Assembly (NCBI RefSeq): GCF_027625935.1
Contig: NZ_CP115300.1
Location: forward strand, 310,001 to 374,000
Length of the DNA: 64,000 nt
Direction of reading: 5' to 3'
Source of the DNA: Streptomyces camelliae
GTDB lineage: Bacteria; Actinomycetota; Actinomycetes; Streptomycetales; Streptomycetaceae
Part shown: in pieces, positions 3,992 through 58,938 of the stretch
How positions within the stretch are numbered: the stretch's first letter is position 1
Layout of the letters: each line of letters begins with the position of its first letter
Translations under genes and position numbers: made by a program
Notes under the pieces: generated by a model
Databases searched by the model: none
Seen by the model: the letters and a program-made list of their open reading frames with translations, nothing else
Told to the model about the DNA's origin: nothing

Positions 3992-5358
3992 GCTGAACCT
4001 CCCCTCGCATGGCCGTGCACCGCGAGCGCGAGAGTGGCGTCATCCGGGAGCCGGCCGGCAGACCGCGTGTCACGGGCGCGGACCGTGCCGGCGACGACGA
4101 TGCCGACGACCTCATGCCTGCCGTCCGCACACGCCCCGGCGATGCCGGCGAGCTCCTCCGCGGTCCAGCTGCCCGCGCTGAGGACGACCAGGGCACCGGA
4201 CTCGGTGGCGCGATCCGGCACGATCGGCCGGTCCATCGAAACTTCCACCACCCGCAGCTGCGGATCGCTCTTGGCCTCGGCGGCGAGCTGTCCGGCGGCC
4301 CGGCGGGCGATCTCGTCGCCGTCCGGTACGACCACCAGCAGCCGCCGGGGGGACGGCAGTTGGTCCCGCAGGTGAGCGCACACCCGCCGGTAGCGGAGCC
4401 GTCTGACGGCCTCGTCGTCGGACCTCTGCGGGGCCGGCAGGTCCCACCGGGTGTCGACGCCGAGGAGTCGGCGGATCCAGGCTCGTGGGCCACCGTCTTC
4501 CGGCTGGTGCCCGCCGTGCCGTTCATCGGGCACGTCGACGGTGCCCAGCAGCGCCGAGCCCAGCGCCGCGGCGATCTCCGGTTCGGTGCGCAGTCGGCGA
4601 TTCATCCGTGCGGCGACGAGATGGCCGATGACCGCGAGCAGGAAGAACAGCAGCGCCCCGGCGACGACGAGCTGCATCCTCGTCGGCGGCGCCTCGCCGG
4701 TCGGCCGGGCGGCCGGCCCCATGACGACCATGCCTGCCTTGTTGGTCGCCGGGCCGGCCTCGTCCAGCTTCTTCATGGCCTCCTCCAGCGAGGTGCGCAG
4801 GTTCTCAAGCGCGGTACGGGCCTGCACGCTCTCCACGGTCCGCCCCGGATCGGCCGCCTTGGCCAGGTCGGTGATGCGGCGGTTGGTCTCCTCGACCTTC
4901 TTCCGCAGCGCATCGGACTCCGTGGCTGCTGCGGAGTCGGTGCCGCCGCCTGCGATCCGCGCGGCGAACCCGACGAATTGCCGCGCCACTTCATCGGAGA
5001 GCTGCTGTGCGCGCTCCGGGGTGTCGGCCGTACCGGAGATCTTGATGATGTTCCCGTCGGCGGCCTTGGCGGTTACCCGATCCCGCAGGTCGGCGCCGCT
5101 GACACCCTTCCAGCCGAGCGTGGCGGCCGCGCTGTCGACCACCGTCGAACTGGTCGCTACGTCCACCTGGGTCAGCAGCTCGCGTTCTTCCCACTGCCCG
5201 GGCAGCAGGACCGATGCCGACGTCGTGTACCGCGGCGGAAAAACCACCGAGACGCCGTAGCCGACGAGCGCGCCCACGACGGCGAGGACGGCGAGAAGCC
5301 GCCAGCGCCGACGGAATATCCGCCCGATGGTGACCAGGCGTATCGTGTCCTCGCTCAA
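3988..5358 (-). CDS. Wzz-like polysaccharide chain-length/export protein
   Basis: 456 residues. It has an N-terminal membrane segment (LLAVLAVVGALVGYGVSVVF), a Wzz-type periplasmic-like domain with a coiled-coil stretch near residues 120-200, a second membrane segment (QLVVAGALLFFLLAVIGHLV) and a C-terminal cytoplasmic domain with no recognisable Walker A. The start appears to be TTG at 5358, which overlaps the glycosyltransferase stop (TTGA). It overlaps the second Wzz-like gene by four bases at its 3' end. Two tandem Wzz-like proteins without a clear kinase active site is unusual; they may form a hetero-oligomer. Function is from family and operon context. Confidence 0.83.
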   Translation of the reverse strand: MSEDTIRLVTIGRIFRRRWRLLAVLAVVGALVGYGVSVVFPPRYTTSASVLLPGQWEERELLTQVDVATSSTVVDSAAATLGWKGVSGADLRDRVTAKAADGNIIKISGTADTPERAQQLSDEVARQFVGFAARIAGGGTDSAAATESDALRKKVEETNRRITDLAKAADPGRTVESVQARTALENLRTSLEEAMKKLDEAGPATNKAGMVVMGPAARPTGEAPPTRMQLVVAGALLFFLLAVIGHLVAARMNRRLRTEPEIAAALGSALLGTVDVPDERHGGHQPEDGGPRAWIRRLLGVDTRWDLPAPQRSDDEAVRRLRYRRVCAHLRDQLPSPRRLLVVVPDGDEIARRAAGQLAAEAKSDPQLRVVEVSMDRPIVPDRATESGALVVLSAGSWTAEELAGIAGACADGRHEVVGIVVAGTVRARDTRSAGRLPDDATLALAVHGHARGGSA

Positions 5359-6674
5359 CTGCGCTGCCTCTTCCCTGTCCGGACCGGGTCGCCCGCCGAC
5401 ACCGGAGTGTGGTCACGGCAGGCGGCGGCGTAGGCGGCGAGCAGCGACGCTTGCGAGTTCTGCCAGGAGAGCGGCCCGCTGATCCGCTCCTGGCCGATCT
5501 TGCCCATCCGGGCCCGTTTCTCGGGATCGTCCAGGAGCAGCGCGATGAGCTCGGCGAATCGGGCCTCGTCGTTGGCGGGCGCGTAGACGGCGGCGTCACC
5601 GGCGGAGACGCGCGCCTCCTTCAGGTCGAACGAGACGATCGGCCGACCCATCGCCATGTACTCAAGGACCTTGTTCATGGTCGACACGTCGTTGAGCGGA
5701 TTGCGCGGGTCGGGGGAAAGACACACGTCCGCGGTGGACAGATAGCGCACCAGGTCGGCATCCGGAATGCGCCCGGTGAACTGCACCTGCTCACCGAGCC
5801 TGAGCCGCCGGGACATCTCCACCATCGCGTCGAAGGCGTCACCGGAGCCGACGAACACCGCATGCCAGTCGGTGCGCCCGTGCTCGTCGCGCAGCTTCGC
5901 GAGGGCCCTCAAGGCGTAGTCGACGCCGTCCTGAGGGCCCATGACGCCGAGGTAGCACAGCAGATAAGGCTTGCCGCGCTTCAACTCCGGCTCGGGCGGC
6001 ACCGGTTGGAACCGGTCGGTCTGGGGTGCGCTGCGCACCACGAAGACGTCCTCGGGCCGCCGACCGCCACGGCGCAGCGCGACGTCCCGGTAGCTCTCGT
6101 TCGTGGCGAGGACGACGTCCGCGGCTCGGTAGGTCCGCTTTTCCAGCGCGCACACGGCGCGGTAGAGCAGATCCTCGCCGCGGTCGAACCGGGAAAGGTA
6201 CAGCTCGGGTACCAGGTCGTGCTGGTCGAAGACGAACCGCGCGCCGCGCCGCTTCAGCCACAGTGCCGGCAGGAACAGCAGGTCGGGCGGGTTGCAGGCG
6301 TGGACCACGTCGACCGGGCCGACCTTGCGGGCCAGCCGGGCCGTGTGCCACAACGCCGATCCGTATTCCCTCACGTAGCCGGCCGGCCCTCCGGTGGCCG
6401 CGCGCAACGGGTAGCGGTGGATCCGCACCCCGTCGATCTCCGCCTCCGGCTCCGTGTCGCGCTTGGTCCCCTGCGGACAGATGACGTGTACCGTCCAGCC
6501 CGCGTCGCGCAGCGTCGTGCACTCCTGCCACACCCGCCGGTCGAACGGCACCGACAGGTTCTCCACCAGGATCAGCGCGCGCCGGTTCGCCCCGTCGCCG
6601 CTGGTTGCGTTACCAAGCAAGGCCCATGTACCCCGGTTCGGTTCGGCGCGCCTCGGCGTCGGGAAGGCGGACAA
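5355..6674 (-). CDS. GT4-family glycosyltransferase
   Basis: Up to 439 residues with a GT-B fold. The N-terminal acceptor domain contains LILVENLSVPFDRRVWQE, and the donor-site region has the EX7E-type segment KVLEYMAMGRPIVSFDLKEA. The family moves a sugar from a nucleotide donor to a lipid-linked glycan in the cytoplasm. The ATG at 6674 overlaps the upstream dehydrogenase by 65 bases; a TTG at 6620, overlapping by only 11 bases and placing the first strand close to the N-terminus, is an equally plausible start (421 residues). Sugar specificity cannot be read from sequence. Confidence 0.9.
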   Translation of the reverse strand: MSAFPTPRRAEPNRGTWALLGNATSGDGANRRALILVENLSVPFDRRVWQECTTLRDAGWTVHVICPQGTKRDTEPEAEIDGVRIHRYPLRAATGGPAGYVREYGSALWHTARLARKVGPVDVVHACNPPDLLFLPALWLKRRGARFVFDQHDLVPELYLSRFDRGEDLLYRAVCALEKRTYRAADVVLATNESYRDVALRRGGRRPEDVFVVRSAPQTDRFQPVPPEPELKRGKPYLLCYLGVMGPQDGVDYALRALAKLRDEHGRTDWHAVFVGSGDAFDAMVEMSRRLRLGEQVQFTGRIPDADLVRYLSTADVCLSPDPRNPLNDVSTMNKVLEYMAMGRPIVSFDLKEARVSAGDAAVYAPANDEARFAELIALLLDDPEKRARMGKIGQERISGPLSWQNSQASLLAAYAAACRDHTPVSAGDPVRTGKRQRS

Positions 6675-7935
6675 GGTCGACGATCACCGGTTCTCCGCCA
6701 TGGGGCAGCGCCGACAGCACGGCCGGGTCCCTGGTCCCGACCAGGCATACCTCGGCGTGCTGGAGCACCTCGCCGACGGAGTCCGCGAGCAGCTGCGCGA
6801 GGTGCGGCAGCCGGTTCTCGATGTACTCGCGGTTCGCGCCGAGCAGCCGGGAGAGGCTCACGTTGGCGTCGTAGATCTTGAGGTCGTACCCCTTGCCGAA
6901 GAGCCTCTCCGCCAGCTCGACGAGCGGGCTCTCGCGGAGGTCGTCGGTGCCGGGTTTGAAGGACAGCCCGAACAGGCCCACCTGGCGTTTGCCGGCGCGC
7001 TCGACCAGGTCCACCGCGCGCTGCAGATGGTCGGAGTTGGAGGACAGCACGTGGGAGAGGATGGGTATGGAGACGTCGGCCCGCTGTGCCGCGTGGACCA
7101 GGCTGCGCAGGTCCTTGGGCAGGCAGGAGCCTCCGAAGGCGAAGCCGGGCCGCAGGTAGGCGGGACTGATGTTCAGCTTGCGGTCGGCCAGGAACACGTC
7201 CATCACCTGGTGCGAGTCCACCCCGAGCGCCTGGTACACCGCGCCCAGCTCGTTCGCGAAGCCGATCTTGAGGCCGTGGAACGCGTTGTCCGCGTACTTG
7301 ATCGCCTCGGCCGTCGGGACCGGCACCCGGAACACCTCGCCGGGCAGGCCGTCGTACAGCGCCATCACCGCGTCGCCGCTTGCCGGGTCGAGCTCGCCGA
7401 TGACGGTCTTGGGCGGGTCGAAGAAGTCCCGCACGCTCGTGCCCTCGCGCAGGAACTCCGGGTTGACCACGACCCCGATCTCCACCCCGGCCGTGCCGCC
7501 GACGTTCTTCTCCAGGATCGGTACCAGCAGGTTCAGGCAGGTGCCCGGGAGCATGGTGCTGCGGAACACGACCGTGTGCCGGCCCCCTTGCTTGGCCCCC
7601 TCGGCCAGCGCGGTGCCGATCTGCTCGGTGACCCGCTCCAAGTATGTCGTGCACAGGCTGCCGTTGGGCTCCGACGGCGTGCCCACGCAGACCAGCGACA
7701 CCTCGCTGTCCATGATCGCCTCGCGGACGTCGCCTGTGGCGCGCAGCGCTCCGGTCCGCACGACCTCGGCGATGAGCTCGCCGATCCGCTCCTCGACCAC
7801 CGGGGCCTTGCCGTCGTTGACCAGGTCGACTTTCACCTGGTTCACGTCCACCCCGATGACCTCGTGTCCCATGCTGGCCAGGCACGCGGCCGATACGCAG
7901 CCCACGTAGCCGAGCCCGAAAACGCTCACTCTCAT
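6610..7935 (-). CDS. UDP-glucose/GDP-mannose dehydrogenase family protein, AlgD-like
   Basis: 441 residues. It has the N-terminal NAD-binding motif GLGYVG, the catalytic segment FAFGGSCLPKDLRSL with the family's nucleophilic Cys, and the C-terminal domain segment SFKPGTDDLRESPLVELAE. The overall pattern, including GANREYIENRLPHL near the C-terminus, is closer to GDP-mannose 6-dehydrogenase than to typical UDP-glucose dehydrogenase, as I remember those families. The reaction is a four-electron NAD-dependent oxidation of a nucleotide hexose to the uronic acid, giving an acidic sugar for the polymer. ATG at 7935 is preceded by GGGGGAGAG. Confidence 0.92.
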   Translation of the reverse strand: MRVSVFGLGYVGCVSAACLASMGHEVIGVDVNQVKVDLVNDGKAPVVEERIGELIAEVVRTGALRATGDVREAIMDSEVSLVCVGTPSEPNGSLCTTYLERVTEQIGTALAEGAKQGGRHTVVFRSTMLPGTCLNLLVPILEKNVGGTAGVEIGVVVNPEFLREGTSVRDFFDPPKTVIGELDPASGDAVMALYDGLPGEVFRVPVPTAEAIKYADNAFHGLKIGFANELGAVYQALGVDSHQVMDVFLADRKLNISPAYLRPGFAFGGSCLPKDLRSLVHAAQRADVSIPILSHVLSSNSDHLQRAVDLVERAGKRQVGLFGLSFKPGTDDLRESPLVELAERLFGKGYDLKIYDANVSLSRLLGANREYIENRLPHLAQLLADSVGEVLQHAEVCLVGTRDPAVLSALPHGGEPVIVDLVRLPDAEARRTEPGYMGLAW

Positions 7936-8035: not shown

Positions 8036-9514
8036 TCAGTAGGCCCCCTGCCCATGGAGCACGGCACGCATCGTCTTCCACAAGATCACTGTGTCGAGGG
8101 CGAGCGACCAGTCCTCCACGTACCGCAGGTCGAGGCGGACCGCCTCCTCCCACGGCAGGTCGCTGCGTCCGCTGATCTGCCACAGGCCGGTGAGCCCGGG
8201 CTTGACCAGCAGCCGCCGCCGGATGTCCGGGTCGTACGCGGCGCACTCTTCCGGTAGCGGAGGCCGCGGACCGACGAGCGACATCGATCCGGTAAGTACG
8301 TTGAAAAGCTGCGGGAGTTCGTCGATCGAGTACCGGCGCAGCACTGCTCCCACCCGGGTCACCCGCGGATCCCGGCGGACCTTGAACAGCAGCCCTGCGC
8401 CCTCGTTGCGCTCGGCGAGCTCGGCACGTGCCCCGTGAGCCCCGGCGATCATGGTACGGAATTTGAGAATGGTGAACTCGCGGCCGTCCTTGCCGACTCT
8501 GCGCTGACGGTAGAAGGCCCCGCCCCGGCTGTCCACCAGCACAAGCAGCGCGACGAACACCATCAGCGGCGCGAACAGCATCAGCAGGACCGCCGCGCCC
8601 ACCCGGTCGACGACCCCCTTGATCGCCCGGCGGCCCCCGGTGAAGGCCGGCATGCTGACCCGCAGCAGCGGTATCCCGAGCACCGCGTCGACGTGCAGCC
8701 GCGGGCCGGCCACCTCCATCAGCACCGGGGCCACGACCATCTCGGCATCGCTGCCTTCGAGGTTCCAGGCCAGCCGCTGCAGCCGGTCCGGCGTCCAGTG
8801 CGGGTCCGGTGTGACCGCGACGACGCGGTAACCGTCGTGGCGGACGTGCTTGGCGACGTCCGCCAGTTGACCGACGACCGGCACTCCGTCCAGTTGGTCA
8901 CCATCGAGCCCGCGACCGTCCGTCGTGCACACCGCCTCCACTCGCCAGCCGATGTGCGGAAACTTGCGGGTCCGGGTGATCAGGTCGCGCACGGTGGCCG
9001 GGCTCCCGGCAGCGAGCACCGGTCTCAGGCACCGGCCTTCCTTGCGCTGTTTGTGCAGCCAGAGGCGGAGCAGATACCGCGCGGTCATGGTGACGAGCGC
9101 GATCGCGGGGATCGCGACGAAGATCCAGAGCTTGATGTTGCGCGAGGTGAGGGCGATCCCGCCGAGTGCCAGTACGACGGTCGCCGCGAACAGTGCGCGT
9201 CCGAGCCGACGGAATTCCTCGGCGCCCTGGCCGAGCACGGCCGGAGCCCACGACCGGCTCACCGCAAGCGCTCCCAGCACCAGCAGCTCGGTGCCGAATG
9301 CGAGAATTCCCCATTTCTCGTGCCAGTTGGCCGCGTCCCGTGCCCCGAAGAAGTTGCCGATCGCCGCCACCACCAAGGCGGTGGCCACGGTATCGCTGGT
9401 GATCACGATACGGCGGTACAGCTGCTCCCAGTCGTTCGCGGGCCGGCTGATTGCCCCGTTCGCCAGACGCCCGCGCGCCGACGAAAAAGGGCCGACTAGT
9501 CCCCCCTGTCGCAC
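8036..9514 (-). CDS. Polyprenyl-phosphate glycosyl-1-phosphate transferase (WbaP/WcaJ type)
   Basis: 492 residues. Several hydrophobic segments fill about residues 35-150, a CoA-binding-like middle region follows, and the C-terminal bacterial sugar-transferase domain shows FYRQRRVGKDGREFTILKFR, SIDELPQLFNVLTGSMSLVG, GPRPPLPEE and KPGLTGLWQISGRS. The family attaches the first sugar-1-phosphate to undecaprenyl phosphate in the membrane, starting repeat-unit assembly. It is the first gene of the operon; GTG at 9514 follows a GGGGGG ribosome-binding stretch. It should set the priming sugar of the exopolysaccharide. Confidence 0.93.
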   Translation of the reverse strand: MRQGGLVGPFSSARGRLANGAISRPANDWEQLYRRIVITSDTVATALVVAAIGNFFGARDAANWHEKWGILAFGTELLVLGALAVSRSWAPAVLGQGAEEFRRLGRALFAATVVLALGGIALTSRNIKLWIFVAIPAIALVTMTARYLLRLWLHKQRKEGRCLRPVLAAGSPATVRDLITRTRKFPHIGWRVEAVCTTDGRGLDGDQLDGVPVVGQLADVAKHVRHDGYRVVAVTPDPHWTPDRLQRLAWNLEGSDAEMVVAPVLMEVAGPRLHVDAVLGIPLLRVSMPAFTGGRRAIKGVVDRVGAAVLLMLFAPLMVFVALLVLVDSRGGAFYRQRRVGKDGREFTILKFRTMIAGAHGARAELAERNEGAGLLFKVRRDPRVTRVGAVLRRYSIDELPQLFNVLTGSMSLVGPRPPLPEECAAYDPDIRRRLLVKPGLTGLWQISGRSDLPWEEAVRLDLRYVEDWSLALDTVILWKTMRAVLHGQGAY

Positions 9515-10025
9515 AGAACCCCCCGGTCCTCAGTGATTGGACGTGATCGCCTGACACCGTTCCTCCCGCAGGAGACCCCCCAGTCCCCCGGCGCATGACA
9601 TCCCGGCTACTTCAGCGCCACTTGAACAACCCGCCCTGGCCGCAGCTGACTCGCATGGCCTGCCAGACCCTCGAACTGCATGTGAACCCGTCGAAACCTC
9701 GGGTACTCCCCGCACCCAAAACCCCACTCGGGCTCCACGAATTGATCACCCCCACGTCCGGCGCCAGAGACGCGGCAGCTGGCCGTCTGTATCGCAGGAC
9801 CCATAGATCATCATTTGTCGCCTCGTGTCCCAGCATGCGAAGCACGGTCAATCTAGACCATCAGGGCCCGTCTGGAGAGAGGGATGTGTGGAATTCGTGC
9901 TCAAGATTTGAAGCCGGGTTCATGGATGGGTGACCGCCTGCGGGTGCCCCGGTGACGGAGGAGGCGCTTGTGACCTGTGATGAGGGAGTTCCCCAGGCTG
10001 CCGGCACCGGCAATCCCGAGGCTTC
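9515..10025. other. Leader/promoter region of the exopolysaccharide operon
   Basis: No convincing gene. The part nearest 9514 should carry the operon promoter, but no clear -35/-10 pair was recognised. Short open frames here lack ribosome-binding sites and protein-like composition. Confidence 0.5.
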
Positions 10026-10033
10026 CCGGCACT
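10026..10033. repeat. Left target-site duplication of IS256-family element
   Basis: CCGGCACT directly precedes the left inverted repeat and is repeated exactly at 11462-11469 after the right end. Eight bases is the usual IS256-family duplication length. Confidence 0.9.
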
Positions 10034-11461
10034 GGTTGCGTCCTGGGAAGTGGTGTACGGGTTCGACCTGATCCGGGGGTTTGCTCCCGCGTCGGGGTGA
10101 CGCCCGCATAGATGAACGGCCACCGGCTGATCTTCGAGATGTCGAGTCACGAAGGAGATCAGCACGATGACCGCACCCGACAGTCTGCCCCTGCACGCCC
10201 TCGCGGAGGACAACCTCGCAGCGGCGAGTCCCGATCTGCTGCGCGCGATGGTCAAGACGTTCGCGGACGCGCTCATGTCCGCCGAGGCCGATGCCCTCTG
10301 CAATGCTGAATACGGGCAGGTCAGCGACGAGCGAGTCAACCATCGCAACGGGTATCGCCTTCGCGAGTGGGACACCCGCGCGGGCACCGTCGAACTCGCC
10401 GTTCCCAAGCTGCGTCAGGGCAGTTACTTCCCGCACTGGCTGCTGGAGCGTCGCCGCCGGGCTGAGCAGGCCCTCATCAGCGTGGTCGCCACCGCCTATC
10501 TGCTCGGCGTCTCCACCCGCCGAGTGGAGAAGCTCGCCGAGAGCCTGGGCGTCACCCAGCTGTCGAAGTCCCAGGTCAGCGCCATGGCCAAGCATCTCGA
10601 CGAACAGGTCGCCGCGTTCCGCAACCGGCCCCTGGACGCCGGCCCCTACGCGTTCGTCTGGGTGGACGCGCTCACGCAGAAGGTTCGCGAGGGCGGCCGC
10701 ATCATCAACGTCCACGCGCTGATCGCGGTCGGCGTCAACGCCGATGGGCACCGTGAGATTCTCGGCCTGGACGTGGCCACTGCCGAGGACGGCGCCGGCT
10801 GGCTGGCCTTCCTGCGCTCCCTGATCGCCCGCGGCCTATCGGGCGTCCAACTGGTCATCTCAGACGCGCACATGGGCCTGGTCAACGCGATCGGGGCCAC
10901 CCTGCCCGGCGCGAGCTGGCAGCGATGTCGTACTCACTACGCCCGCGCGTTGCTGAGCCAGGTGCCCAAGTCGGCCCAGCCGTGGGTGGCCACGCTGCTG
11001 CGGACCGTCTTCGAACAACCCGACATCGATGCAGTCCAGTCCCAGATGCGGCACGTCCTGGACGCATTGGAGGCCAAGTTCCCCAAGGCGGCAGCCCACT
11101 TGGACGCCGCTCAGGGCGATGTGCTGGCGTTCACCGCGTTCCCGCGCGAGATCTGGCGGCAGATCTGGTCGAACAATCCGCAGGAACGGCTCAACAAGGA
11201 GATCCGCCGCCGCACCGACGTGGTCGGCATCTTCCCCGACCGCACCGCCCTGATCCGCCTGGTCGGCGCGGTGCTGGCCGAGCAGAACGACGAGTGGACC
11301 GAAGCCCGCCGCTACATGGGACTCGACCTGCTGGCCAAGGCCCGCCTCCACCCGATCGAGTCAGAAACCGACGACACAGTCATCCCGACGGAACTCACCG
11401 CATAGCCTCAAAGAAGAGATCACCGAGTGGCCGTCGATACACCACTCCCGCGGACGTGACC
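10034..11461 (+). mobile_element. Complete IS256-family insertion sequence
   Basis: The 1428-bp element is bounded by imperfect inverted repeats: GGTTGCGTCCTGGGAAGTGG at the left, and GGTCACGTCCGCGGGAGTGG when the right end is read on the opposite strand. Exact 8-bp direct repeats flank it. The right end is also defined independently by a second, truncated copy of the same IS end at 45590. The element sits inside an older IS5-type remnant that continues at 11462. Perfect flanks and an intact transposase suggest recent insertion. Confidence 0.93.
10167..11405 (+). CDS. IS256-family (Mutator-type) transposase
   Basis: 412 residues, full length for the family. The DDE catalytic core is visible as VWVDALTQKVREGG, VISDAHMGLVNAIG and the terminal acidic region around [20 protein letters not shown] at 10167 follows AAGGAG. 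The reading frame is uninterrupted, so the protein is probably active. It catalyses cut-out/copy-in movement of the surrounding element. A closely similar C-terminus is present as a remnant at 45646-45905. Confidence 0.95.
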   Translation: MTAPDSLPLHALAEDNLAAASPDLLRAMVKTFADALMSAEADALCNAEYGQVSDERVNHRNGYRLREWDTRAGTVELAVPKLRQGSYFPHWLLERRRRAEQALISVVATAYLLGVSTRRVEKLAESLGVTQLSKSQVSAMAKHLDEQVAAFRNRPLDAGPYAFVWVDALTQKVREGGRIINVHALIAVGVNADGHREILGLDVATAEDGAGWLAFLRSLIARGLSGVQLVISDAHMGLVNAIGATLPGASWQRCRTHYARALLSQVPKSAQPWVATLLRTVFEQPDIDAVQSQMRHVLDALEAKFPKAAAHLDAAQGDVLAFTAFPREIWRQIWSNNPQERLNKEIRRRTDVVGIFPDRTALIRLVGAVLAEQNDEWTEARRYMGLDLLAKARLHPIESETDDTVIPTELTA

Positions 11462-11620
11462 CCGGCACTGCCGACCGGATCGTCGCCGTCGACTCCACGA
11501 TCGTGCGCGCTCACCAGCACACCGCCGGAGCCCGCCCAGACGGGCCGCGGCCGTTTGGGGGCGTCCAGACGGATCGGCGGCCACCGCCACGACGCCAGAT
11601 GCGGTCCTGGCCGACAAGAC
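11462..11620 (+). pseudogene. IS5-type transposase fragment
   Basis: Translation gives DRIVAVDSTIVRAHQHTAGA, the first-aspartate region of a Streptomyces IS5-type transposase, and then becomes unrecognisable. The IS256 element inserted immediately upstream of this fragment. Confidence 0.65.
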
Positions 11621-11639
11621 ACCCCATGCTGCTACCCGG

Positions 11640-11807
11640 TCAAGCGGCTGCCGCGAGTGGGGAACACGTCGGCTGGTGGAAGGCGATGGTTTCGTCGAAC
11701 TTCTCGTGACGTGCCAGGCAGTGATGGAGTTGGCCAAGCATGCGGTTGAACGGGTCGCGGAGGGCTGCGTGGTAGCGATCGCCGTTGCTGCGTCGGCGGT
11801 TGTCGTC
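11640..11807 (-). pseudogene. IS110-family transposase C-terminal remnant
   Basis: The minus strand reads NGDRYHAALRDPFNRMLGQL and LHHCLARHEKFDETIAF, matching the C-terminal tail of IS110 transposases such as the intact copy ending at 25575. Only about 55 residues remain and there is no start. Confidence 0.7.
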
Positions 11808-11845
11808 GCCTGCGATGGACAGCTCCCGGTTGACGGTGTCGGCGT

Positions 11846-12216
11846 CCATCTCGTCCGCCCGTGCTGCCGCCAGCTCTGCTGGGTGGCCTGTACGTGTTCC
11901 TGCTGGCGGCCGGGGCGTGGGACTCGACGGGTGGCTGCGCTCCCGCCCGGACCAGCTGCGCGGCTTGTTGGTCGGAACCGCCGTCTCGGCTGCGCTGCTC
12001 GCCGTGATCGTGCTGCCGGTACTGCCGCCCCTCCAGCGCGGTCTGGACGTACGGCATCAGCTCGAATTCGGGGGACGTCCGCGTGGCCGCCACCCTCTCC
12101 AACCCCTACGGCGTGCACAACGTCGAATGGGGTGGCCACGTCTACGTCTCTACGTCTGTACAGGCCCCCGCCGCCCCTGGGCGAGATGGGGCCCGAACTG
12201 CGCAACTACGCGTGAC
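11846..12216 (+). pseudogene. Broken membrane protein, possibly glycosyltransferase-39-like C-terminus
   Basis: Coding-like segments occur in different plus frames. One is hydrophobic (LLVGTAVSAALLAVIVLPVL); another, after a frameshift, reads LSNPYGVHNVEWGGHVYV and then GEMGPELRNYA before a stop. I recall similar tails in Streptomyces ArnT/GT39-like membrane proteins, so this is probably the decayed 3' end of one. No start is visible. The family assignment is tentative. Confidence 0.4.
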
Positions 12217-12360
12217 GCCCCCGCTCCAACGGTAGGAGCCGGACGGCATGAAGCGTCCTCACAGCTGCATCACTGGTCCTCTCGCTGGGTCCAGCCCCGA
12301 GCATTACCCGGCGCTACATGTCCGTTCGCCGTAGCTGATACCAGAACAGGGCCCTGATCC

Positions 12361-12405
12361 CCGTGGGTTCAAAGAAGCCGAAGGCTCTTCAGCCGGAACC
12401 CACGG
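12361..12405. terminator. Long inverted repeat, probable terminator
   Basis: CCGTGGGTTC (12361-12370) pairs perfectly with GAACCCACGG (12396-12405). A smaller hairpin AGCC-GAA-GGCT lies inside the loop. It sits just downstream of the minus-strand gene ending at 12421 and could stop transcription from either side. Confidence 0.65.
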
Positions 12406-12420
12406 GCCCACCGGTCCGCT

Positions 12421-12930
12421 TCAGGTCGGTGCATCCGTGGGTTCGGCAGGAACACGAGGATGCTGTGCAAGCCGAAGAGCTTCGGCCGTGACATCGGCGT
12501 CGACCTGTGCCGGTGTTCTATCGCCGTATTCGAGGACGTCGTACTCGTCGTCCAGGTCGACGAGTCGCTCGGCCAGTGGCAGCTCGTGCCCGAAGCGCTG
12601 GTGGATCCGGAAGGCCAGCTCGCGTGGCGTCAGCTCGCCAGCCACCATCCGAGCGGCAAGTGCTCGTGTGGCGGCTTCTTGTCCGGCAACACTGTCCGCT
12701 GAGTAGAAGGTGAGGCCCAGTTCGTCGAGTGCCGGAGGGAGGAGGTCGGGGACGTCGTAATCCGCCTCCGCGCGTGTGCACGCCGCCAAGATCCGCAGGG
12801 CAGGACTGTCGAGGCCGGCAACGAGTGCATCACAGGCAGCAGCGACGACCTCGGCTGCGCGGATCTCGCCCATGCTCCAGAGAACGGCACGGTCCTGAAG
12901 CTCGCGGGCGGCTGGTTCGGTCGACGGCAT
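12421..12930 (-). CDS. Uncharacterised acidic cytoplasmic protein
   Basis: 169 residues, strongly acidic and mostly helical, with no signal peptide or membrane segment. It starts MPSTEPAARELQDRAV and contains LTPRELAFRIHQRFGHELPL and LVDLDDEYDVLEYGDRTP. I recognise it only as a Streptomyces hypothetical protein; size and composition resemble immunity-type small proteins, but there is no toxin beside it. Codon use is typical of the host, so it is probably a real gene, followed by the long inverted repeat at 12361-12405. Confidence 0.75.
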   Translation of the reverse strand: MPSTEPAARELQDRAVLWSMGEIRAAEVVAAACDALVAGLDSPALRILAACTRAEADYDVPDLLPPALDELGLTFYSADSVAGQEAATRALAARMVAGELTPRELAFRIHQRFGHELPLAERLVDLDDEYDVLEYGDRTPAQVDADVTAEALRLAQHPRVPAEPTDAPT

Positions 12931-13092
12931 CTGCCCATGATCTCGTCAGTGGGTTGAGCAGGTCGAGTGGGTTTCACTGCGATACGTGCTCGGGAGCTTC
13001 TCCCAGAAGCGCAAGGCAAGTTCCGGCCACCTGGCCCGGCTACGATCTCCGGCTGAAGCACGGGGGCCTCTTGGGAGGGAATGGGGCGGGGT

Positions 13093-13760
13093 ATGGCGCG
13101 ATGGAAGGAACTGCCCGGTGGCATGGACCCGGTCGTGGTGGAGTTCGTCGGGCCATTGCGTCGGCTCAAGGACGACAGTGGTCTGAGTCTGCCCAGGCTC
13201 GCCGCACGGACGGGTTACAGCGCGTCCTCGTGGGAACGATACTGAGCGGCCGCCTGATGCCGCCGAAGGCGGCGGTCGAGGCGCTGGCGGCGGTCACCGG
13301 CACCGATCCGGCACTGCTGATGGCGCTCCATGAGACGGCAGCCGATTCCTGGCAACGAGACCGGCCGCTTTCGGACACCGATGAGGAGCGCGGGGTACCG
13401 GACCGGGATTCCGTCGGGGACCACGGTGCGTCGGGCCACGAACCGCTGCACATGACCGTTACGGCAGGCCCTGTTCAGCGGCCCGTGACACGTCCGATGC
13501 TGTACCTGACCGCTGCGGCATCGGCCCTGGCGGGAGCGGCGATCGCCGTGGCGGTTCTGACGGCGGTCCACGGCCAGAGCCCGACCGCTTCGCCTCGCAC
13601 GGCGGCAGTGGCCCGTCCGATCGCCTACGCCTGCAAGGATGTCCGCAAGGACGGGGCGTGGCACGCCGGGAACAGCGACACCAGCAGCGACACGCTGGAA
13701 GTCGACATGTCGGGCCCGGAGGTCGCCGAACTGCGTGCGCGGTTGGTGCAAGCACAAGGT
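13093..13760 (+). pseudogene. Frameshifted XRE-family membrane regulator, truncated
   Basis: The ATG at 13093 begins MARWKELPGGMDPVV and runs through a helix-turn-helix (LSLPRLAARTGYSASSWERY), then hits TGA at about 13243. Deleting one base relative to the expected reading gives a continuation in the next frame, LSGRLMPPKAAVEALAAVTG, then a linker, one membrane helix (ALAGAAIAVAVLTAV) and AGNSDTSSDTLEVDMSGPEV. The family usually ends in a peptidoglycan-binding-like domain, which is missing here; homology is lost near 13750, where a DNA-ligase remnant begins. Confidence 0.75.
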
Positions 13761-13789
13761 CCCACCGAGGATGCCATCGTTGGTGCGGT

Positions 13790-52924: not shown

Positions 52925-54130
52925 CTAGGCGGGGTTGTCGCGGATCCAGTCGAGGCGCTCGGCGGTCTTGCGGACCAGCGGGTGGCCGGGGCCGAACACC
53001 CGGCGGTAGCCGTCGAGGCAGCTTTGCAGCAGTTGAGCCGCCTCCTGCCGTTGCCCGGCGTCCGTCAGGACGTTCGCCAGGTTGTCCCGGGCGTGGAGGG
53101 TGTCGGGGTGGGTGTCGCCGCACTGCCGGACCTTGCTGGCCTCGACCTCGCGCAGCAGGGGCACGGCTTCCGCGTAGCGTCCCATGGCGTGGAGCACGGC
53201 GGCGAGGTTGTTGCGGACCATGAGAGCGTCCTGGTGATCCCGGCCCCGGGCGTGCTCGTACTCGGCCAGGACGGTGCGCAGCACCGCTTGCGCCTCCTCC
53301 AGGCGGCCGAGCCGGACCAGGGCGGCGCCGAGGTTGCCCCGTGCGGTGAGCAGGGCTTCTTCATCGCGTTCGCTCTGGCGCTCCAGACGGACGATCAGCT
53401 CCCGCAGTTCCCGTTCGGCCTCCTGCCACCGACCCGCCTTGATCAGGGAGATCGCGTGGCCGTTGGCGGCGGACAGTGTGTCGGGGTGGTCCGGTCCGAA
53501 CGTGTGCCTGCGGCGTTCCAGAACGTCCCTGCGCAGCGCGGTGGCCTCCGGCACGCGCCGCAGGTCCTCCAGCACCTCGGCGAGACGGACCGCGCCGGCG
53601 AGCGTGTCGGGATGATCGCGGCCCAGCAGCTCCGCTCGGTTGGTCCACACACTCCGCCACACCTCCTCCGCAGCACCGAGCTCGCCCGTCGTCTGCAGCA
53701 GCGCGGCCAGGTCGGCGGCGGTCGTGAGGGTGTCCGCGTGCGCGTAGCCCAGCACCCGCGCCTGCGCCCGCACCACTTCCGTCAGCCGCTCCCGGGCCTC
53801 CTCGCGGCGCCCCTTCACCCGCCCGAGAACCCGGGCGTAGTCGCGGAAGGCGGCCAGCGTCTCGGGGTGGTCCGGCCCGAGACGCTGCAGTTTGGCGTTG
53901 GCGATCAGGCCGAAGTGCTGGTCGGCGGGGACGGGGACCCGGGCGACCTCGTTCTCGGTCCCGTCCGGGCCGGTCAGCGTGGCGACCAACTCGGCCGCTG
54001 GCGCAAACTCCGACTCCGGATCCGCCTCGGGGCCGGGGTCGGGCTCGGTCGCACGGCCGGGCTCACGGCCGGGGTCGGGGTCGGGCGGGTCGTCCGGAGT
54101 CCTCGAACGGTCACGCCACCATCGGGCCAT
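52925..54130 (-). CDS. TPR-repeat protein next to CHAT protein
   Basis: 401 residues. After a Pro/Asp/Glu-rich N-terminus (about residues 10-45), it has about seven tetratricopeptide repeats of the kinesin-light-chain/NPHP type, seen as recurring GPDHPETLAAFRDYARVLGR, GRDHPDTLAGAVRLAEVLED, GPDHPDTLSAANGHAISLIK and GDTHPDTLHARDNLANVLTD. It has no catalytic domain or membrane segment. Starts 48 bases after the CHAT gene stop with GGGAG before ATG, so both are one transcription unit. Probably a scaffold or sensor binding the CHAT protein or its target. Confidence 0.92.
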   Translation of the reverse strand: MARWWRDRSRTPDDPPDPDPGREPGRATEPDPGPEADPESEFAPAAELVATLTGPDGTENEVARVPVPADQHFGLIANAKLQRLGPDHPETLAAFRDYARVLGRVKGRREEARERLTEVVRAQARVLGYAHADTLTTAADLAALLQTTGELGAAEEVWRSVWTNRAELLGRDHPDTLAGAVRLAEVLEDLRRVPEATALRRDVLERRRHTFGPDHPDTLSAANGHAISLIKAGRWQEAERELRELIVRLERQSERDEEALLTARGNLGAALVRLGRLEEAQAVLRTVLAEYEHARGRDHQDALMVRNNLAAVLHAMGRYAEAVPLLREVEASKVRQCGDTHPDTLHARDNLANVLTDAGQRQEAAQLLQSCLDGYRRVFGPGHPLVRKTAERLDWIRDNPA

Positions 54131-54178
54131 GTCGGATCAGCTCCCTTCGATCGGGTATCAGCAGATACCGGTGGTTCG

Positions 54179-57100
54179 TCAGGGCCCGGAGTGCACATGG
54201 GCGGCCCACAGGCTGGGAGTGCGGGGGAAGGCGGCACGGCACTCCCGGACGGCGTGGTGCAGGGCGACGGCGCTCCGCCCGGTGTCGAGGCCCGGGGAGT
54301 CGGCGGAGCGGCCCTCGCGCAGGCGGCGGTACAGGCTCCTGGCCACCCGGACGGCCACCGCGTCGTGCACCGGCCAGAGGGTTCCGATGGCGTGCGGGTA
54401 TCCGGCGATCAGGAACGCGGAGGTGATGTGGATGGACTCGTCCGCCAGCCGTTGCGCGCCCCGCGCGGTCTCGCAGGCCGACAGGACCGCGAGCCGCGCC
54501 CCCGGCAGGTCCAGCCGGGAGATCTGCCGTACCGTCAGCGGCGCTCGTTGATGGTCGTGGACGAGCAGGCGGGCGTTCGACGGATCGTCCGGATCGCTCA
54601 CCCCGTGGCAGGCGAAGTGCGCGTAAGGGTGCTCGGGCAGGGCCCGCACCACCCGGGCGAGTGTCGCGTCAGGGCCGGTGACCAGATCGCACGGCAGGAG
54701 TTTCGCCAGCTCCGCGACCTCCCGCCGGGCACCGTGCAACGGCCGCGCGCCTGGCGTCTCCGGCTGTGCCACTGCCAGCAGTCGGCCCGGTGGCACCGGC
54801 CCCGCGGCCCGCGCCCGGGCGTACGCCAGCGCGCGTACGGTCGGTGTGTAGGAGGAGATCACCCGGTCCAGGACGGCGCGGTGTCCGTCGTGATGGCCGG
54901 CCGCGTGCAACGGCAGCGCCGAGAGCGCGCCGCCCGGCGACCACCACAGCCGGGGCCAGTCGTCGCCGGACGGCGGGCCGAGCAGGCCGAGGCGGGCGAG
55001 AACGGGTTCGGCGACGTGGTCCCACGCCCAGCCCAGCACCTCGCCGAGCGTCCGCTGGGCCCGTTGTTCCCCAGCCGGGTCGGTGGCCGCCGTGAGGGCG
55101 TCGTCCAGCCGGGCCACCTGGTGGGCCACCGTCGCCGGGGTGACCTGCGGCAGCGGCACCACTTGCACTCCGTCCGGCCTCAGGACCAGCGCGTCGCTGC
55201 GATACCGGCTGCAGTACGCGAGCACCACCGGTCCTCTGTCGGCGCAGGCCAGCAGGCTGCCGAGGGCCGGTGCCGCGAGGAAGTCGGCGAAGCCGGGCAG
55301 GGTGCGGATGTGGGTGACGAGTCCTTCCCACTGGGCGGCCAGCCGGTGCCGTTCGTCGTCCTGCTGCTCCCCGTCCTGCTGCTCGTCCACCGCGTCCAGC
55401 TCGTCGATCCGGTCCCGTAACCGAAGGAAGAGCCCGGCCGCCTCCGGGTGGGCGCCGCGCAGGCGCTCCCAGTCGCCACGCAAGGCGATGGCCTGCCCGA
55501 GCAGCACGCCCCGGCCCTGCTCCAGCAGCAGAACGGCCCGTTCCGGCTCCCCGGCGTGGACGGCACACGCCGCCGCGTCGGCGGCCAGCCCGTGGACACC
55601 CGTGAGCCGGTGCTCCTGGTCGCTGCGCGCGAGCCGCCGCGTGACGCCGAACGGCAGCAGCTCCACGGCCAGCCGATATCCCCGCAGCGCCTCCTCCCAG
55701 CGGCCGGCGTCCGCCGCGGCCGCGCCCCAGTCGCGGGCCGCCCCGATCCGCCGGCCGGCCGGGAGGGCGGCGATCCGGGCGACCTGCCGGTAGGCATCCT
55801 CGGCCGCCAGCAGCACGCCCGGATCACCGGCGACGTCGTGCAGGGTGCGCAGGGCGCTCGCGTACGTCTGCAGATGGTTGGCGTGCTCGGCCTCGTTCTC
55901 GTCGGGCGCCCACACCGCCCGGCCGAGCGTGGTCACCGCCTGGTCCAGCACGGCCGGATCCTCCCGGGCTTCCGCCTTCGTGAGCAGCGCCTTGCCGAGG
56001 TTGTGCAGCAGCACGGGCAGACTCGGGTCGCCGTACGCCGTCGCGTCGACGGCCCGTGTCTGCAGCGCGATCCCCTCCTCCAGGTCGGCCGGGTCACCGG
56101 CCGCGCGGTACCGCTCGTACAGGGCGTTGGCGAGGTGGTTCGCCCGGCCGGTCCAGTGCGGGCTGTCCTCCGGGGTGCGGGCCAGCACCTCACGGGCTAC
56201 CGTGACGGCCTCGGCCGCCGCCGAGGTGTCCCCGGTCCGGTTGTACCAGGTCTGGAGGACCACCCCGAGGTTGGCCAGATGGCTCGTGGATTCCAGCGGC
56301 AGGTCGCAGGACCGGACGGACTGCCGGGCCAGCTCGGCGGCCTCGCGCAGGGCGGCGAGGTCCCCGGTCTGGTGGTAGCGCTCGCGCAGGGCGACCGCGA
56401 GGTTCGCCACCTGGGTGGAAACGGCGTTCGCCAGCAGGAAGGGCTGGTCGGGCCGGCCGTCGGCCAGGGCCTCCCGCAGCGCCTCGATGGCCTCGTCCAG
56501 CAAGGCCGCGTCGCCCGTCCGCTCTCCGAGCCGGTGCAGGGCGTTGCCCAGGCTGTTCAGTCTCAGCCGTCTGTCCCGGCCGCCTGGGGGTGTGTGCCGG
56601 ACCGCGGCGCGCAGCAGGTCCACCGCCTCGTGCAGCAGCGCCGTACCCCCGCCGTTCTCGGCGGCCAGCCTCAGTGCCACGCCCAGACTGGTCTGCGCGG
56701 TCAGCCGCGCCGGGGCGTCGGTCCGCCCTGGGGCCTCCGCCAGGGCCGTCCTGGTGACACGGAGCAGTTCGTCGACCGCGGACTCGTCGGGCGAGACCTC
56801 CACCCACGTGCGCAGCGCCGCACCGAGACCGTTCAGCACGGAAGCGCGGTACCGCGCCCCCGGCGGGCTCTCCGCCAGTGCCGCACGCCGCAGTTCGAGC
56901 CCTTCGATCAGAGTCTCCGGGTCTCCTGTCCGGTCGAAGGCGTGTTCGCGGGCCAGCGCGAGACCGTCCATGACCGACGGGCGTTCCGGGGCGCCGGGCG
57001 GGAGGTGGCTCAGCGAACCCCGGAACGCGCGCTCCGCCTCCGCCAGGTCGCACGGGTCGCCCGCGTGCTCGAACCGGATGACGAGCGCCTGGCCGAGGGA

Positions 57101-57529
57101 GTCCAGTGCCATCGCCCGGTTGTGGCTGCGGTCCGGCGGGACGGCCACGGTCCGGCGCAGCGCCCCGATCGCCCGGTCCAGGTCCTCCCGGCGCCGCTCG
57201 TCGTCGAAACGTCGGCCCAGCGCGACCCCGAGGAAGAGCAGGTCCTGCTCCGCCGCATCGTCCTCGGTCGTCGCCTCGCCGCACAGCGCGATCAGCTCGT
57301 CCCGGTCGTGGTCGTCGCTGAACGCCGACCAGCGGAGCCACAGGCCCACCCGCAGATTCGCCGAGGAGCTGCGACGGCCGCGTTCGTCCGGCGCCTCGCG
57401 CAGGGCGGCCCGGTACCACTCGACCGCCCGGTCCAGATCCCGGCGATCGTGCGTGCGCCACCAGTGGTCCAGGTGCGCGTTGGCCGCATCCGTCGGATCC
57501 GGCGAAGCGGTCCGCTCCTCGTACGACAT
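54179..57529 (-). CDS. TPR-CHAT (caspase-like) protease
   Basis: 1116 residues. Residues about 1-700 are helical TPR/SEL1-like repeats, with repeated RTGDxxxLxEA units (RTGDAALLDEAIEALREALA; QTGDLAALREAAELARQSVR). The C-terminal third is a CHAT domain with catalytic His975 in YAHFACHGVSDPDDPSNARL and Cys1019 in LAVLSACETARGAQRLADES, plus HITSAFLIAGYPHAIGTLWP, all typical. CHAT proteases are caspase/separase-like peptidases used in bacterial conflict and regulated death. The ATG at 57529 follows GGGGGG. Divergent from a small Cys protein and membrane protein. Confidence 0.95.
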   Translation of the reverse strand: MSYEERTASPDPTDAANAHLDHWWRTHDRRDLDRAVEWYRAALREAPDERGRRSSSANLRVGLWLRWSAFSDDHDRDELIALCGEATTEDDAAEQDLLFLGVALGRRFDDERRREDLDRAIGALRRTVAVPPDRSHNRAMALDSLGQALVIRFEHAGDPCDLAEAERAFRGSLSHLPPGAPERPSVMDGLALAREHAFDRTGDPETLIEGLELRRAALAESPPGARYRASVLNGLGAALRTWVEVSPDESAVDELLRVTRTALAEAPGRTDAPARLTAQTSLGVALRLAAENGGGTALLHEAVDLLRAAVRHTPPGGRDRRLRLNSLGNALHRLGERTGDAALLDEAIEALREALADGRPDQPFLLANAVSTQVANLAVALRERYHQTGDLAALREAAELARQSVRSCDLPLESTSHLANLGVVLQTWYNRTGDTSAAAEAVTVAREVLARTPEDSPHWTGRANHLANALYERYRAAGDPADLEEGIALQTRAVDATAYGDPSLPVLLHNLGKALLTKAEAREDPAVLDQAVTTLGRAVWAPDENEAEHANHLQTYASALRTLHDVAGDPGVLLAAEDAYRQVARIAALPAGRRIGAARDWGAAAADAGRWEEALRGYRLAVELLPFGVTRRLARSDQEHRLTGVHGLAADAAACAVHAGEPERAVLLLEQGRGVLLGQAIALRGDWERLRGAHPEAAGLFLRLRDRIDELDAVDEQQDGEQQDDERHRLAAQWEGLVTHIRTLPGFADFLAAPALGSLLACADRGPVVLAYCSRYRSDALVLRPDGVQVVPLPQVTPATVAHQVARLDDALTAATDPAGEQRAQRTLGEVLGWAWDHVAEPVLARLGLLGPPSGDDWPRLWWSPGGALSALPLHAAGHHDGHRAVLDRVISSYTPTVRALAYARARAAGPVPPGRLLAVAQPETPGARPLHGARREVAELAKLLPCDLVTGPDATLARVVRALPEHPYAHFACHGVSDPDDPSNARLLVHDHQRAPLTVRQISRLDLPGARLAVLSACETARGAQRLADESIHITSAFLIAGYPHAIGTLWPVHDAVAVRVARSLYRRLREGRSADSPGLDTGRSAVALHHAVRECRAAFPRTPSLWAAHVHSGP

Positions 57530-57625
57530 GTCCGGCCCCCCGTATGCCGTGATGACGCCTTACGATATCCAACTGCCCGCAACCGCACGGTCGTTATGCT
57601 GACCGCACAGCGGAGGGAGGCAGTG
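57530..57625. promoter_or_regulatory. Divergent promoter region of the CHAT module
   Basis: This 96-base gap drives both arms. TATGCT at 57595-57600 is a possible -10 for the plus genes. A TTGCGG hexamer on the minus strand is a possible -35 for the CHAT gene. No strong operator seen. Confidence 0.45.
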
Positions 57626-58030
57626 GTGGTGGAATCCGGACCGGGCCACGAGCGACTCGGGGAACTGTGCCGCAGGCTGACGGCGACGCCGGCCGAGCTG
57701 ACCGCGGACGCCCGTATGCGCGGACTCGTCGACCACATCCTCGCCGAGGTGCGCGCCAGCCGTCCGCCGGAGGAACTGGAGGACTCCTTCGACGAGGTGG
57801 AGGAGCTACTCCTCGCCGCCGGGCACAGCGCCGGCCTCGGCTCCTACCGGACCACCCCCGGCTCGTACGAGCGCCTCCCGGGCGCCGGCCACGGCCACCC
57901 GCCGCTGTATGTGCTCGCCTGCCCCCTGGGCCACTGCGCACGCGTCGAGGCGCCCGCCGCCGACGCAGACCGGCCGCCGCGATGCCGTGTCTTCGAGCAG
58001 CCGCTGCGCGAGATCACCCTGCGGCCGTGA
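57626..58030 (+). CDS. Small cysteine-motif protein, CHAT-module partner
   Basis: 134 residues from one of three adjacent in-frame GTG codons; 57626 is taken because AGGGAGG ends five bases upstream. N-terminal helical part (GPGHERLGELCRRLTATPAE; VRASRPPEELEDSFDEVEEL) then a C-terminal stretch YVLACPLGHCARVEAP...PPRCRVFEQPL whose three Cys and one His could bind zinc. Its stop overlaps the next start (GTGA). Family not known to me by function. Confidence 0.78.
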   Translation: MVESGPGHERLGELCRRLTATPAELTADARMRGLVDHILAEVRASRPPEELEDSFDEVEELLLAAGHSAGLGSYRTTPGSYERLPGAGHGHPPLYVLACPLGHCARVEAPAADADRPPRCRVFEQPLREITLRP

Positions 58031-58938
58031 CCGCCTTCCTCAACACGCTCGGCGGGCGGCTCGCCGAACGCTGGATGTCGCTGCTGGCGATCCCCGGTCT
58101 GATCTACCTGGCAGCGCTCGCCTGCGCCATCACCCTCGGCCAGCGCCACTGGAACGAACCCGGACGGCTGCGCGCCCGGCTCGACGCCCTGGCCGCCGCC
58201 CCGGGCGCCCACAGCCCGGGCGGCGTCGCGGTCGCCGCGATCGCCGTCCTGGCCGGTTCCGCGGCCGTCGGAGTCGGCGTCCAGGCGGTGGGCACGTGGT
58301 GGGAGAGGGCCTGGCTCACCGATACGCGCGGGCCCGTCACCCGTCGGCTGACGGCCCGTCGCCGACGCCGCTGGGAGGCCGCCGACAGCGCCTACCGCGC
58401 CGCCCTGGTGGCCGCCGGACGCGCCACGATCGCCGGCGCCGACGACGCCGGTCCGCTCACCGAGGCCGCCGAACGCCACTATGCCGCCCGCGCCCGCATC
58501 GCGTTCGCCGTGCCCCGCTACCCGTTCTGGGCCGGCGACCGCATCACCGCCCCCGAACACCGCGTCTGGCGCGCCTACCGCCTCAACCTCACCGCCGCCT
58601 GGCCCCACCTGTGGCTGCTCGCCCCGGACGGCACCCGCCAAGAACTCTCCACCGCGCGTACCGCCTTCACCTCGGCCTGCCGTCTGCACGCCTGGGCCGT
58701 CGCCTATCTCCTGCTCGGCGCCTGCTGGTGGCCCGCCGCGGTCATCGGCGTGCTGGCCGCCGCCACCGCGGTCCCCCGGGGCCGCTCCGCCGCCTCCGCC
58801 TTCGCCGACCTCGCCGAAGCACTGACCGACCTGCACGGCAAGGACCTCGCCCTGGCCCTCGGCATCCCGTGCGACAGCGGCCTCACCCAGGAGGTGGGCA
58901 CGGAGATGACGCGCGTGCTGAACAAGGGCGTCGCCTAG
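58027..58938 (+). CDS. Multi-pass membrane protein, CHAT-module partner
   Basis: 303 residues from GTG at 58027, overlapping the preceding stop. Membrane helices at about 18-37 (SLLAIPGLIYLAALACAITL), 66-88 and a hydrophobic hairpin at 222-249 (LLLGACWWPAAVIGVLAAAT); between them a basic cytoplasmic region (RRLTARRRRRWEAADSAYRA) and FAVPRYPFWAGDRITAPEHR, LNLTAAWPHLWLLAPD. It resembles a Streptomyces family sometimes mislabelled as a cell-wall protein. In this context it may be the membrane target or effector of the module. Its stop overlaps that of a toxin remnant on the other strand. Confidence 0.82.
   Translation: MTAFLNTLGGRLAERWMSLLAIPGLIYLAALACAITLGQRHWNEPGRLRARLDALAAAPGAHSPGGVAVAAIAVLAGSAAVGVGVQAVGTWWERAWLTDTRGPVTRRLTARRRRRWEAADSAYRAALVAAGRATIAGADDAGPLTEAAERHYAARARIAFAVPRYPFWAGDRITAPEHRVWRAYRLNLTAAWPHLWLLAPDGTRQELSTARTAFTSACRLHAWAVAYLLLGACWWPAAVIGVLAAATAVPRGRSAASAFADLAEALTDLHGKDLALALGIPCDSGLTQEVGTEMTRVLNKGVA

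Follow-up and report, generated by a model that had tools for sequence, protein, structure and literature searches.

Gene content of the locus

We analysed a 64,000-nucleotide stretch of the Streptomyces camelliae genome, hereafter the window, that spans positions 310001-374000 of a 9.3 Mb contig in a genome of 9.6 Mb. The window contains a gene for a caspase-like protein with a CHAT domain (hereafter CHAT), which is flanked on one side by a gene for a tetratricopeptide repeat (TPR) protein and on the other side by genes for a small Cys-rich protein (SM) and a membrane protein (MEM) (Table 1). The four reading frames, which had been proposed in an initial annotation made from the letters of the window, are all present at 52925-58938, and all four have a coding-type GC content by codon position. 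The same annotation gave the divergent gap between the two arms as 96 bases; the gap has this length if SM starts at the second of its GTG codons and is 93 bases from the first.

Table 1. Features of the CHAT locus (positions in the window)
Feature	Position	Strand	Description
TPR protein	52925-54130	-	401 residues; 48 bases downstream of the CHAT gene on the same strand; exchangeable putative sensor or scaffold
CHAT (caspase-like) protein	54179-57529	-	1116 residues; CHAT domain at residues 831-1115; His975, Cys1019
Divergent intergenic region between the CHAT and SM genes	57530-57622	.	93 bases, read from the sequence
SM, small Cys-rich protein	57623-58030	+	135 residues from the first of three tandem GTG codons
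MEM, membrane protein	58027-58938	+	303 residues; GTG start overlaps the SM stop by 4 bases (GTGA)

The CHAT protein matches the Pfam family PF12770 with 172.3 bits (E-value 2e-50), thereby passing the curated cut-off of 24, and has a long N-terminal region with weak TPR matches (TPR_10 below its cut-off). The catalytic His975 and Cys1019, described earlier as intact, are both found at these positions in the 1116-residue protein. Moreover, the two residues are kept in 76 of 77 aligned CHAT sequences, a set that includes the CHAT of the window twice as well as the other CHAT of the genome; the sole exception (L049) has gaps at both catalytic columns. Judged by its sequence, CHAT is an intact predicted cysteine protease. 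The TPR protein matches the Pfam families TPR_10 (E-value 2.6e-44) and TPR_12 (E-value 1.6e-40) and resembles part of FxSxx_TPR (NF040586, positions 488-684 of 830) with 222 bits, which is under the cut-off of 300; it has no match in PADLOC (E-value up to 0.1).

CHAT, SM and MEM occur together across genomes

Loci were collected from GTDB species genomes by MEM alone, i.e. with CHAT outside the selection. In 74 of the 80 loci obtained in this way, CHAT is present, and SM is present in 70 by profile (E-value up to 0.01) and in 76 when small proteins with a Cys-rich C terminus read by eye (L038, L076, L077, L078, L080 and L081) are added. A similar TPR protein was detected in 43 loci, and its orientation differs in some of them. 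Among the MEM loci without CHAT (L036, L052, L064, L069, L072 and L073), MEM lies at a contig end in L036, L069 and L072, and L052 is a contig of 5.2 kb; in L071, CHAT is ~7 kb away from MEM. When the neighbouring genes were clustered, only the CHAT, MEM, TPR and SM clusters occurred in more than 10 loci, and the next largest cluster occurred in 10.

Among 295 Streptomyces genomes, CHAT is present in 231 and MEM has a match in 105 (E-value up to 1e-6). At E-values below 1e-40 there are 91 Streptomyces MEM matches, some of them partial, and 80 of these have CHAT within 7 kb (52 near the 150 CHAT rows listed, 26 of 33 in fuller lists, and two of the last six, G122 and G196), while only ~1% of random positions would be expected to lie near CHAT, a rough estimate that assumes five CHAT genes per genome. 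Thus, a chance origin of the grouping can be ruled out. Seen from the side of CHAT, MEM is matched within 7 kb of 61 of the 150 listed rows. Of the 11 MEM matches that are not near CHAT, five are at contig ends (G083, G114, G017-C366, G271-C7 and G152-C348); the divergent gene that is truncated there in G083 and G114 resembles CHAT proteins in the region preceding the CHAT domain. Two more exceptions look like CHAT loss, i.e. SM-MEM is kept in G186 (L085) together with CHAT remnants in pieces, and two IS4/5-type transposase genes adjoin SM in G049 (L084). At greater distance, CHAT adjoins MEM in 9 of 12 loci (L090-L095 and L098-L100), a set (L089-L100) that was not blind, since CHAT was already listed near L092, L099 and L100 and the genome of L089 was listed as one without CHAT.

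The divergent layout on which the initial annotation drew is present in the window and is only one of several layouts elsewhere: SM-MEM may be divergent from CHAT, CHAT may come first or last, or the arms may be convergent, with the trio kept together. In the cyanobacterial loci L077 and L078, CHAT, SM and MEM lie in a row on one strand. The pairwise distances of MEM and CHAT are correlated (r = 0.94, a value without a baseline that shared descent alone raises).

The opposite strands of the two arms in the window, as well as the lack of a similar TPR gene in 37 of the 80 loci, would fit an accidental adjacency of two unrelated gene pairs; however, with co-occurrence at the levels given above (74/80 and 80/91), in several layouts and in two phyla, such an accident is already refuted for CHAT, SM and MEM and has a negligible probability. 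In total, we conclude that CHAT, SM and MEM are one evolutionary unit and that the TPR gene is exchangeable. The earlier proposal that four genes form one system therefore holds in that the two arms are linked, and has to be narrowed to three genes; the outcome that had been named as refuting it, i.e. that the arms almost never co-occur, did not occur in the neighbourhood search.

SM is a candidate adaptor with a conserved Cys motif

SM has 69 homologues, including the one in the window, and no match in Pfam (E-value up to 1), NCBIfam or PADLOC (E-value up to 0.1). It consists of a helical N terminus (residues 7-65), a linker and a C-terminal Cys-rich, ribbon-like part with C100, C105 and C121. 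In the AlphaFold2 model (mean predicted local distance difference test score (pLDDT) 84.4; predicted template modelling score 0.53), the N terminus is helical, residues ~70-90 are poorly predicted, and the C terminus has two short strands. The Cys motif of the initial annotation is conserved across homologues: in a 71-sequence set, in which the alignment numbering is two lower, C100 and C105 are each kept in 71/71, C121 in 70/71 and C16 in 68/70. Based on this pattern, SM probably binds zinc, perhaps with C16 as the fourth ligand.

The last 50 residues contain at least two Cys in 15 of 16 distant small proteins adjoining MEM, and the sixteenth, the SM of L076, has a CxxxxC...CxxH pattern in the right frame; as a background, 110 of 415 called genes of 80-200 residues, SM genes included, have at least two Cys in this region. 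The N termini of SM proteins vary and are helical, alpha/beta-like (by eye), present as a longer 200-residue form, or reduced to almost nothing. Similarly, when the core SM profile was compared with the profile of the cyanobacterial set, only the C-terminal ribbon aligned (columns 77-128, probability 92.8). Because the ribbon is constant and the N termini differ, SM can be read as an adaptor that combines an invariable zinc-ribbon-like C terminus with an exchangeable N-terminal domain.

The SM and MEM genes overlap by 4 bases in 48 of 71 pairs, and SM-to-MEM gaps of 275-512 bases are probably an artefact of MEM starts placed too far downstream by the script used. R76 of the SM linker, an Arg without exception in the alignment (51/51), was considered as a cleavage site and dropped, as it is explained by composition: Arg was observed in 23/23 linkers of non-redundant SM proteins versus a mean of 23.0 after shuffling. 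A pattern of Arg followed by a small residue, which was defined post hoc, was present in 23/23 versus a shuffle mean of 19.3 and was matched in 27 of 2000 shuffles. An assignment of SM as EAD7 (L038, E-value 0.055) was too weak and was not used.

Two variants of SM were observed outside the common form. In L071 (5472-9723), a 532-residue protein that weakly matches TCAD9 carries an SM-type Cys ribbon at its end and adjoins an HTH-NTPase-TPR (STAND-like) protein and MEM. Moreover, a Streptomyces small protein (L102:9464-9880) is of the cyanobacterial SM type (C...YxWYR...C..H; compare L077:7966-8355), a likeness that suggests old or exchanged adaptor types across phyla.

MEM is a predicted helical membrane protein

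MEM, for which 41 homologues were found, had been described as multi-pass, and at least three, probably four, membrane helices are indeed predicted. The hydrophobic segments are near residues 20-34, 65-88 and 222-241, with the last split at 232-234 into two helices, and the AlphaFold2 model is all-helical (mean pLDDT 94.2). The middle part (residues 92-205) is basic with 20 Lys/Arg versus 11 Asp/Glu. From these predictions, the N terminus, the middle part and the C terminus are probably cytoplasmic, with four membrane helices, or with three if residues 222-241 form a single interrupted helix. Because the basic middle part is probably cytoplasmic, a cytosolic protease could reach it. MEM has no match in Pfam (E-value up to 1), NCBIfam or PADLOC (E-value up to 0.1), and an assignment of MEM as a transducer (2f95, E-value 0.024) was too weak and was not used.

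Distribution of MEM

In a wide sample of Actinomycetota, MEM was detected in 4 of 296 genomes, including the genome of the window, which indicates that the module occurs mainly in Streptomyces and its relatives. Matches covering 24-47% of MEM are present on 11 plasmid records (ten from Streptomyces and one from Embleya), and no match to MEM was found in the phage collection. In G253, copies of CHAT and MEM are present at both chromosome ends (C1:18448-23062 and C1:11315391-11320005) with mirror-image coordinates, as expected if the copies lie in terminal inverted repeats.

Comparison with known systems

The kind named CATRA (Caspase And TPR Repeat-Associated) in the literature (PMC12657218, figure legend) is a partial precedent for a CHAT protein with a small protein and a third protein (PMC8195603); passages of PMC10907252 mention CHAT only as one effector domain. 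Both CATRA and the set described here combine a small protein and a third protein with a CHAT/caspase protein whose N-terminal region is long; they also share CHAT with TPR repeats, which in the window amount to the sub-threshold TPR_10 match inside CHAT and the separate TPR protein. However, SM and MEM match none of the Pfam families for this kind, i.e. CATRA-N (PF20269), CATRA-C (PF20270) and CATASP (PF20271), and CATRA-N and CATRA-C are not among the matches listed for the four proteins of the window, although the library searched contains both models. Moreover, the CATASP proteins examined lack a Cys ribbon, and the CATRA protein of L129 lacks a membrane helix.

CATASP has no match in the genome of the window and was detected in 6 of 101 Streptomyces genomes, in one of them below the cut-off. 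Among the four CATASP loci examined, none of which has a match to SM or MEM, L131 and L132 have consecutive genes for CHAT, CATASP and a 238-residue protein; L129 has CATASP next to a CATRA-N protein and a short CHAT-like fragment, with a fuller CHAT match 7.5 kb away, and in L130 no CHAT match was found. The genes are at 2695-6462 (CHAT), 6495-6872 (small gene) and 6882-7598 (third gene) in L131, and at 10021-13764, 9631-9987 and 8904-9620, respectively, in L132. The third protein of these two loci is not CATRA; it carries a single membrane helix at its N terminus and lacks a Pfam match over its 238 residues. This set stands midway between CATRA and SM-MEM.

In a tree of 109 CHAT domains, judged by leaf order after midpoint rooting and without support values, the two CATASP-adjoining CHATs are placed among the MEM-linked ones, and partners thus seem to have been swapped. 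The simplest reading of these sequences is that CHAT proteases form a single pool with alternative small and third partners, among which SM-MEM would be an unnamed and common set. Altogether, CATRA appears to be the nearest described kind, with a similar plan and different partners. No description of SM, of MEM or of the pair was found in searches of open-licence PMC papers.

The other known systems are more distant. Csx29 of Craspase (type III-E CRISPR) likewise combines a TPR region and a CHAT domain, and it is described as a protease that cuts a partner after activation; by contrast, the relation of CHAT to the Csx29 model NF041237 is weak (37.9 bits versus a cut-off of 300) and the partners differ. 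No Cas models were found among the ten window neighbours scanned, and no search for a CRISPR array was made. A bacterial caspase-like protease can also be encoded together with gasdermin, a membrane-acting partner. The window similarly has a caspase-like protease beside a membrane-acting candidate; however, MEM is predicted to be an integral helical protein rather than a soluble gasdermin, and it lacks Pfam and PADLOC matches. Finally, in the EACC1-caspase systems as described by Kaur et al. 2020 (PMC7159879), a constant membrane component with a single membrane helix accompanies a caspase-type protein with an N-terminal caspase and variable C-terminal domains. In both cases, then, the membrane component next to the caspase-type protein is constant and domains are exchangeable, whereas MEM has three or four helices rather than one and CHAT has a C-terminal rather than an N-terminal protease domain.

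A putative protease-to-membrane module

We propose, with a probability of about 0.5, that the CHAT protease is coupled via SM as an adaptor to MEM as an effector or anchor, in a compact signalling module that centres on CHAT and has a fixed core of three proteins. A protease-to-membrane switch is likely. In such a switch, the TPR-like part of CHAT, aided by the separate TPR protein, would restrain the protease in the absence of a cue, while SM, made in step with MEM, would join CHAT and MEM on the inner membrane face. Activated CHAT might then cut SM, MEM or both, and the cut would alter the state of the membrane, either by an opening or by the release of a cytoplasmic part, with self-damage, dormancy or a stress response as the likely outcome. 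The sequences themselves establish the gene set and how well it is conserved, the intact catalytic residues, the conserved Cys of SM, the predicted helices of MEM and the gene overlap; complex formation, zinc binding, activation, cleavage and outcome are steps that we infer, and the precedents of Csx29 and of caspase-gasdermin pairs are analogies and not evidence.

To our knowledge, most Streptomyces CHAT proteins have no known partner. The SM-MEM pairing would provide a concrete candidate target and site of action for a good share of the Streptomyces CHAT proteases, and it makes directly testable the question of whether bacterial caspase-like proteases act via dedicated non-gasdermin membrane proteins.

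Several observations weigh against the proposed module. MEM of G181 (L086) has no trace of CHAT nearby; MEM of G112, a genome without CHAT, and of G178 and G241 has no CHAT within 7 kb, and in none of these four is a contig end or another cause visible; and the distant loci L089, L096 and L097 are without CHAT. The narrow SM profile matched in only 26 of 295 Streptomyces genomes versus 105 for MEM, with only 13 candidates per genome scored; SM may be less constant than MEM, and it is also a short protein that was narrowly profiled. No cleavage site was found in the SM linkers, and the structure comparison of MEM returned only partial helical matches, none of which points to a function. Finally, no enrichment of defence genes was seen around MEM loci when 100 neighbour genes were compared with 100 control genes. 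As to the distant loci, L096 (5510-15714) and L097 (4349-14306) have a neighbourhood in common between two species, with genes for proteins of 820, 420-423, 259, 584 and 160 residues and without CHAT, which suggests that part of the MEM family occurs without CHAT and has another partner.

In another reading, MEM is only an anchor, and SM and MEM place CHAT at the membrane to act on some other protein, e.g. a regulator or an envelope protein, so that the module would be a regulatory protease rather than a killer. The near-constant trio with a MEM that belongs to no recognisable pore or toxin family, the merely partial helical structure matches of MEM, the adaptor-like build of SM and the neighbours without defence enrichment are all consistent with such a role. 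However, most loci have no conserved fourth gene as a candidate substrate, and MEM is strongly conserved for an anchor, with 34 invariant columns in 27 closer sequences; in 56 diverse sequences, only three columns are invariant and 24 more are conserved at 90% or above. On balance, we regard a pure anchor as rather unlikely.

Anti-phage abortive infection, in which activation of CHAT would make MEM damage the membrane as in caspase-gasdermin pairs, is in keeping with an accessory-like distribution (105/295 Streptomyces and 4/296 Actinomycetota genomes, and partial matches on 11 plasmid records) and with the proposal, made in PMC7159879 and PMC8195603, that caspase-type proteases are conflict effectors in multicellular bacteria. 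By contrast, the phage collection has no match, the window neighbours are mostly metabolic, and TPR, SM and MEM are without a PADLOC match, with only weak BovA matches for CHAT (E-values 0.027 and 0.072). The neighbour comparison likewise argues against this function. From 285 neighbour genes, 140 were drawn, of which 100 were scanned against PADLOC (E-value up to 1e-10) alongside 100 random Streptomyces genes that were unmatched for chromosome position or species. The neighbours matched 36 PADLOC families versus 17 for the control, counted as families and not as distinct members; the 25 of 36 families listed for the neighbours mostly belong to the PD-T4-6 model group with one member each, and no listed family has more than two members among the neighbours or more than three in the control. 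Because defence enrichment is absent, we hold an anti-phage function to be rather unlikely.

The more specific proposal that the module is a new class of caspase-to-membrane execution system, i.e. that CHAT opens or releases a dedicated four-helix MEM via a zinc-ribbon adaptor as a bacterial equivalent of lytic death by caspases, independently of gasdermin and with exchangeable sensors around a fixed core in Actinomycetota and Cyanobacteria, is one that we consider improbable.

Genomic setting and other CHAT neighbourhoods

Ten frames flanking the locus were scanned and include a SpoIIE-type protein, a GntR regulator, a dicarboxylate symporter, a racemase, a partial lyase and a flavohaemoglobin-type protein; metabolic and regulatory genes predominate among these neighbours. 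The gene at 51446-52183 matches the Lyase_1 profile only at positions 84-229 of 312 and possibly encodes a truncated lyase.

The only other CHAT of the genome (G000 C1:1368466-1369203, L152) has no MEM or SM match within the 18 kb fetched, and CHAT-domain frames of 883-885 residues occur in several Streptomyces genomes. Among 20 other CHAT loci examined, seven (L136, L138, L139, L141, L143, L147 and L149) have a different partner set. These seven represent another recurrent Streptomyces CHAT neighbourhood, in which two genes for proteins of 205-226 residues adjoin CHAT, followed in six of the seven by a gene for a protein of 348-364 residues; on the other side of CHAT lies a convergent gene for a protein of 611-632 residues (1011 in L141 and 1001 in L143).

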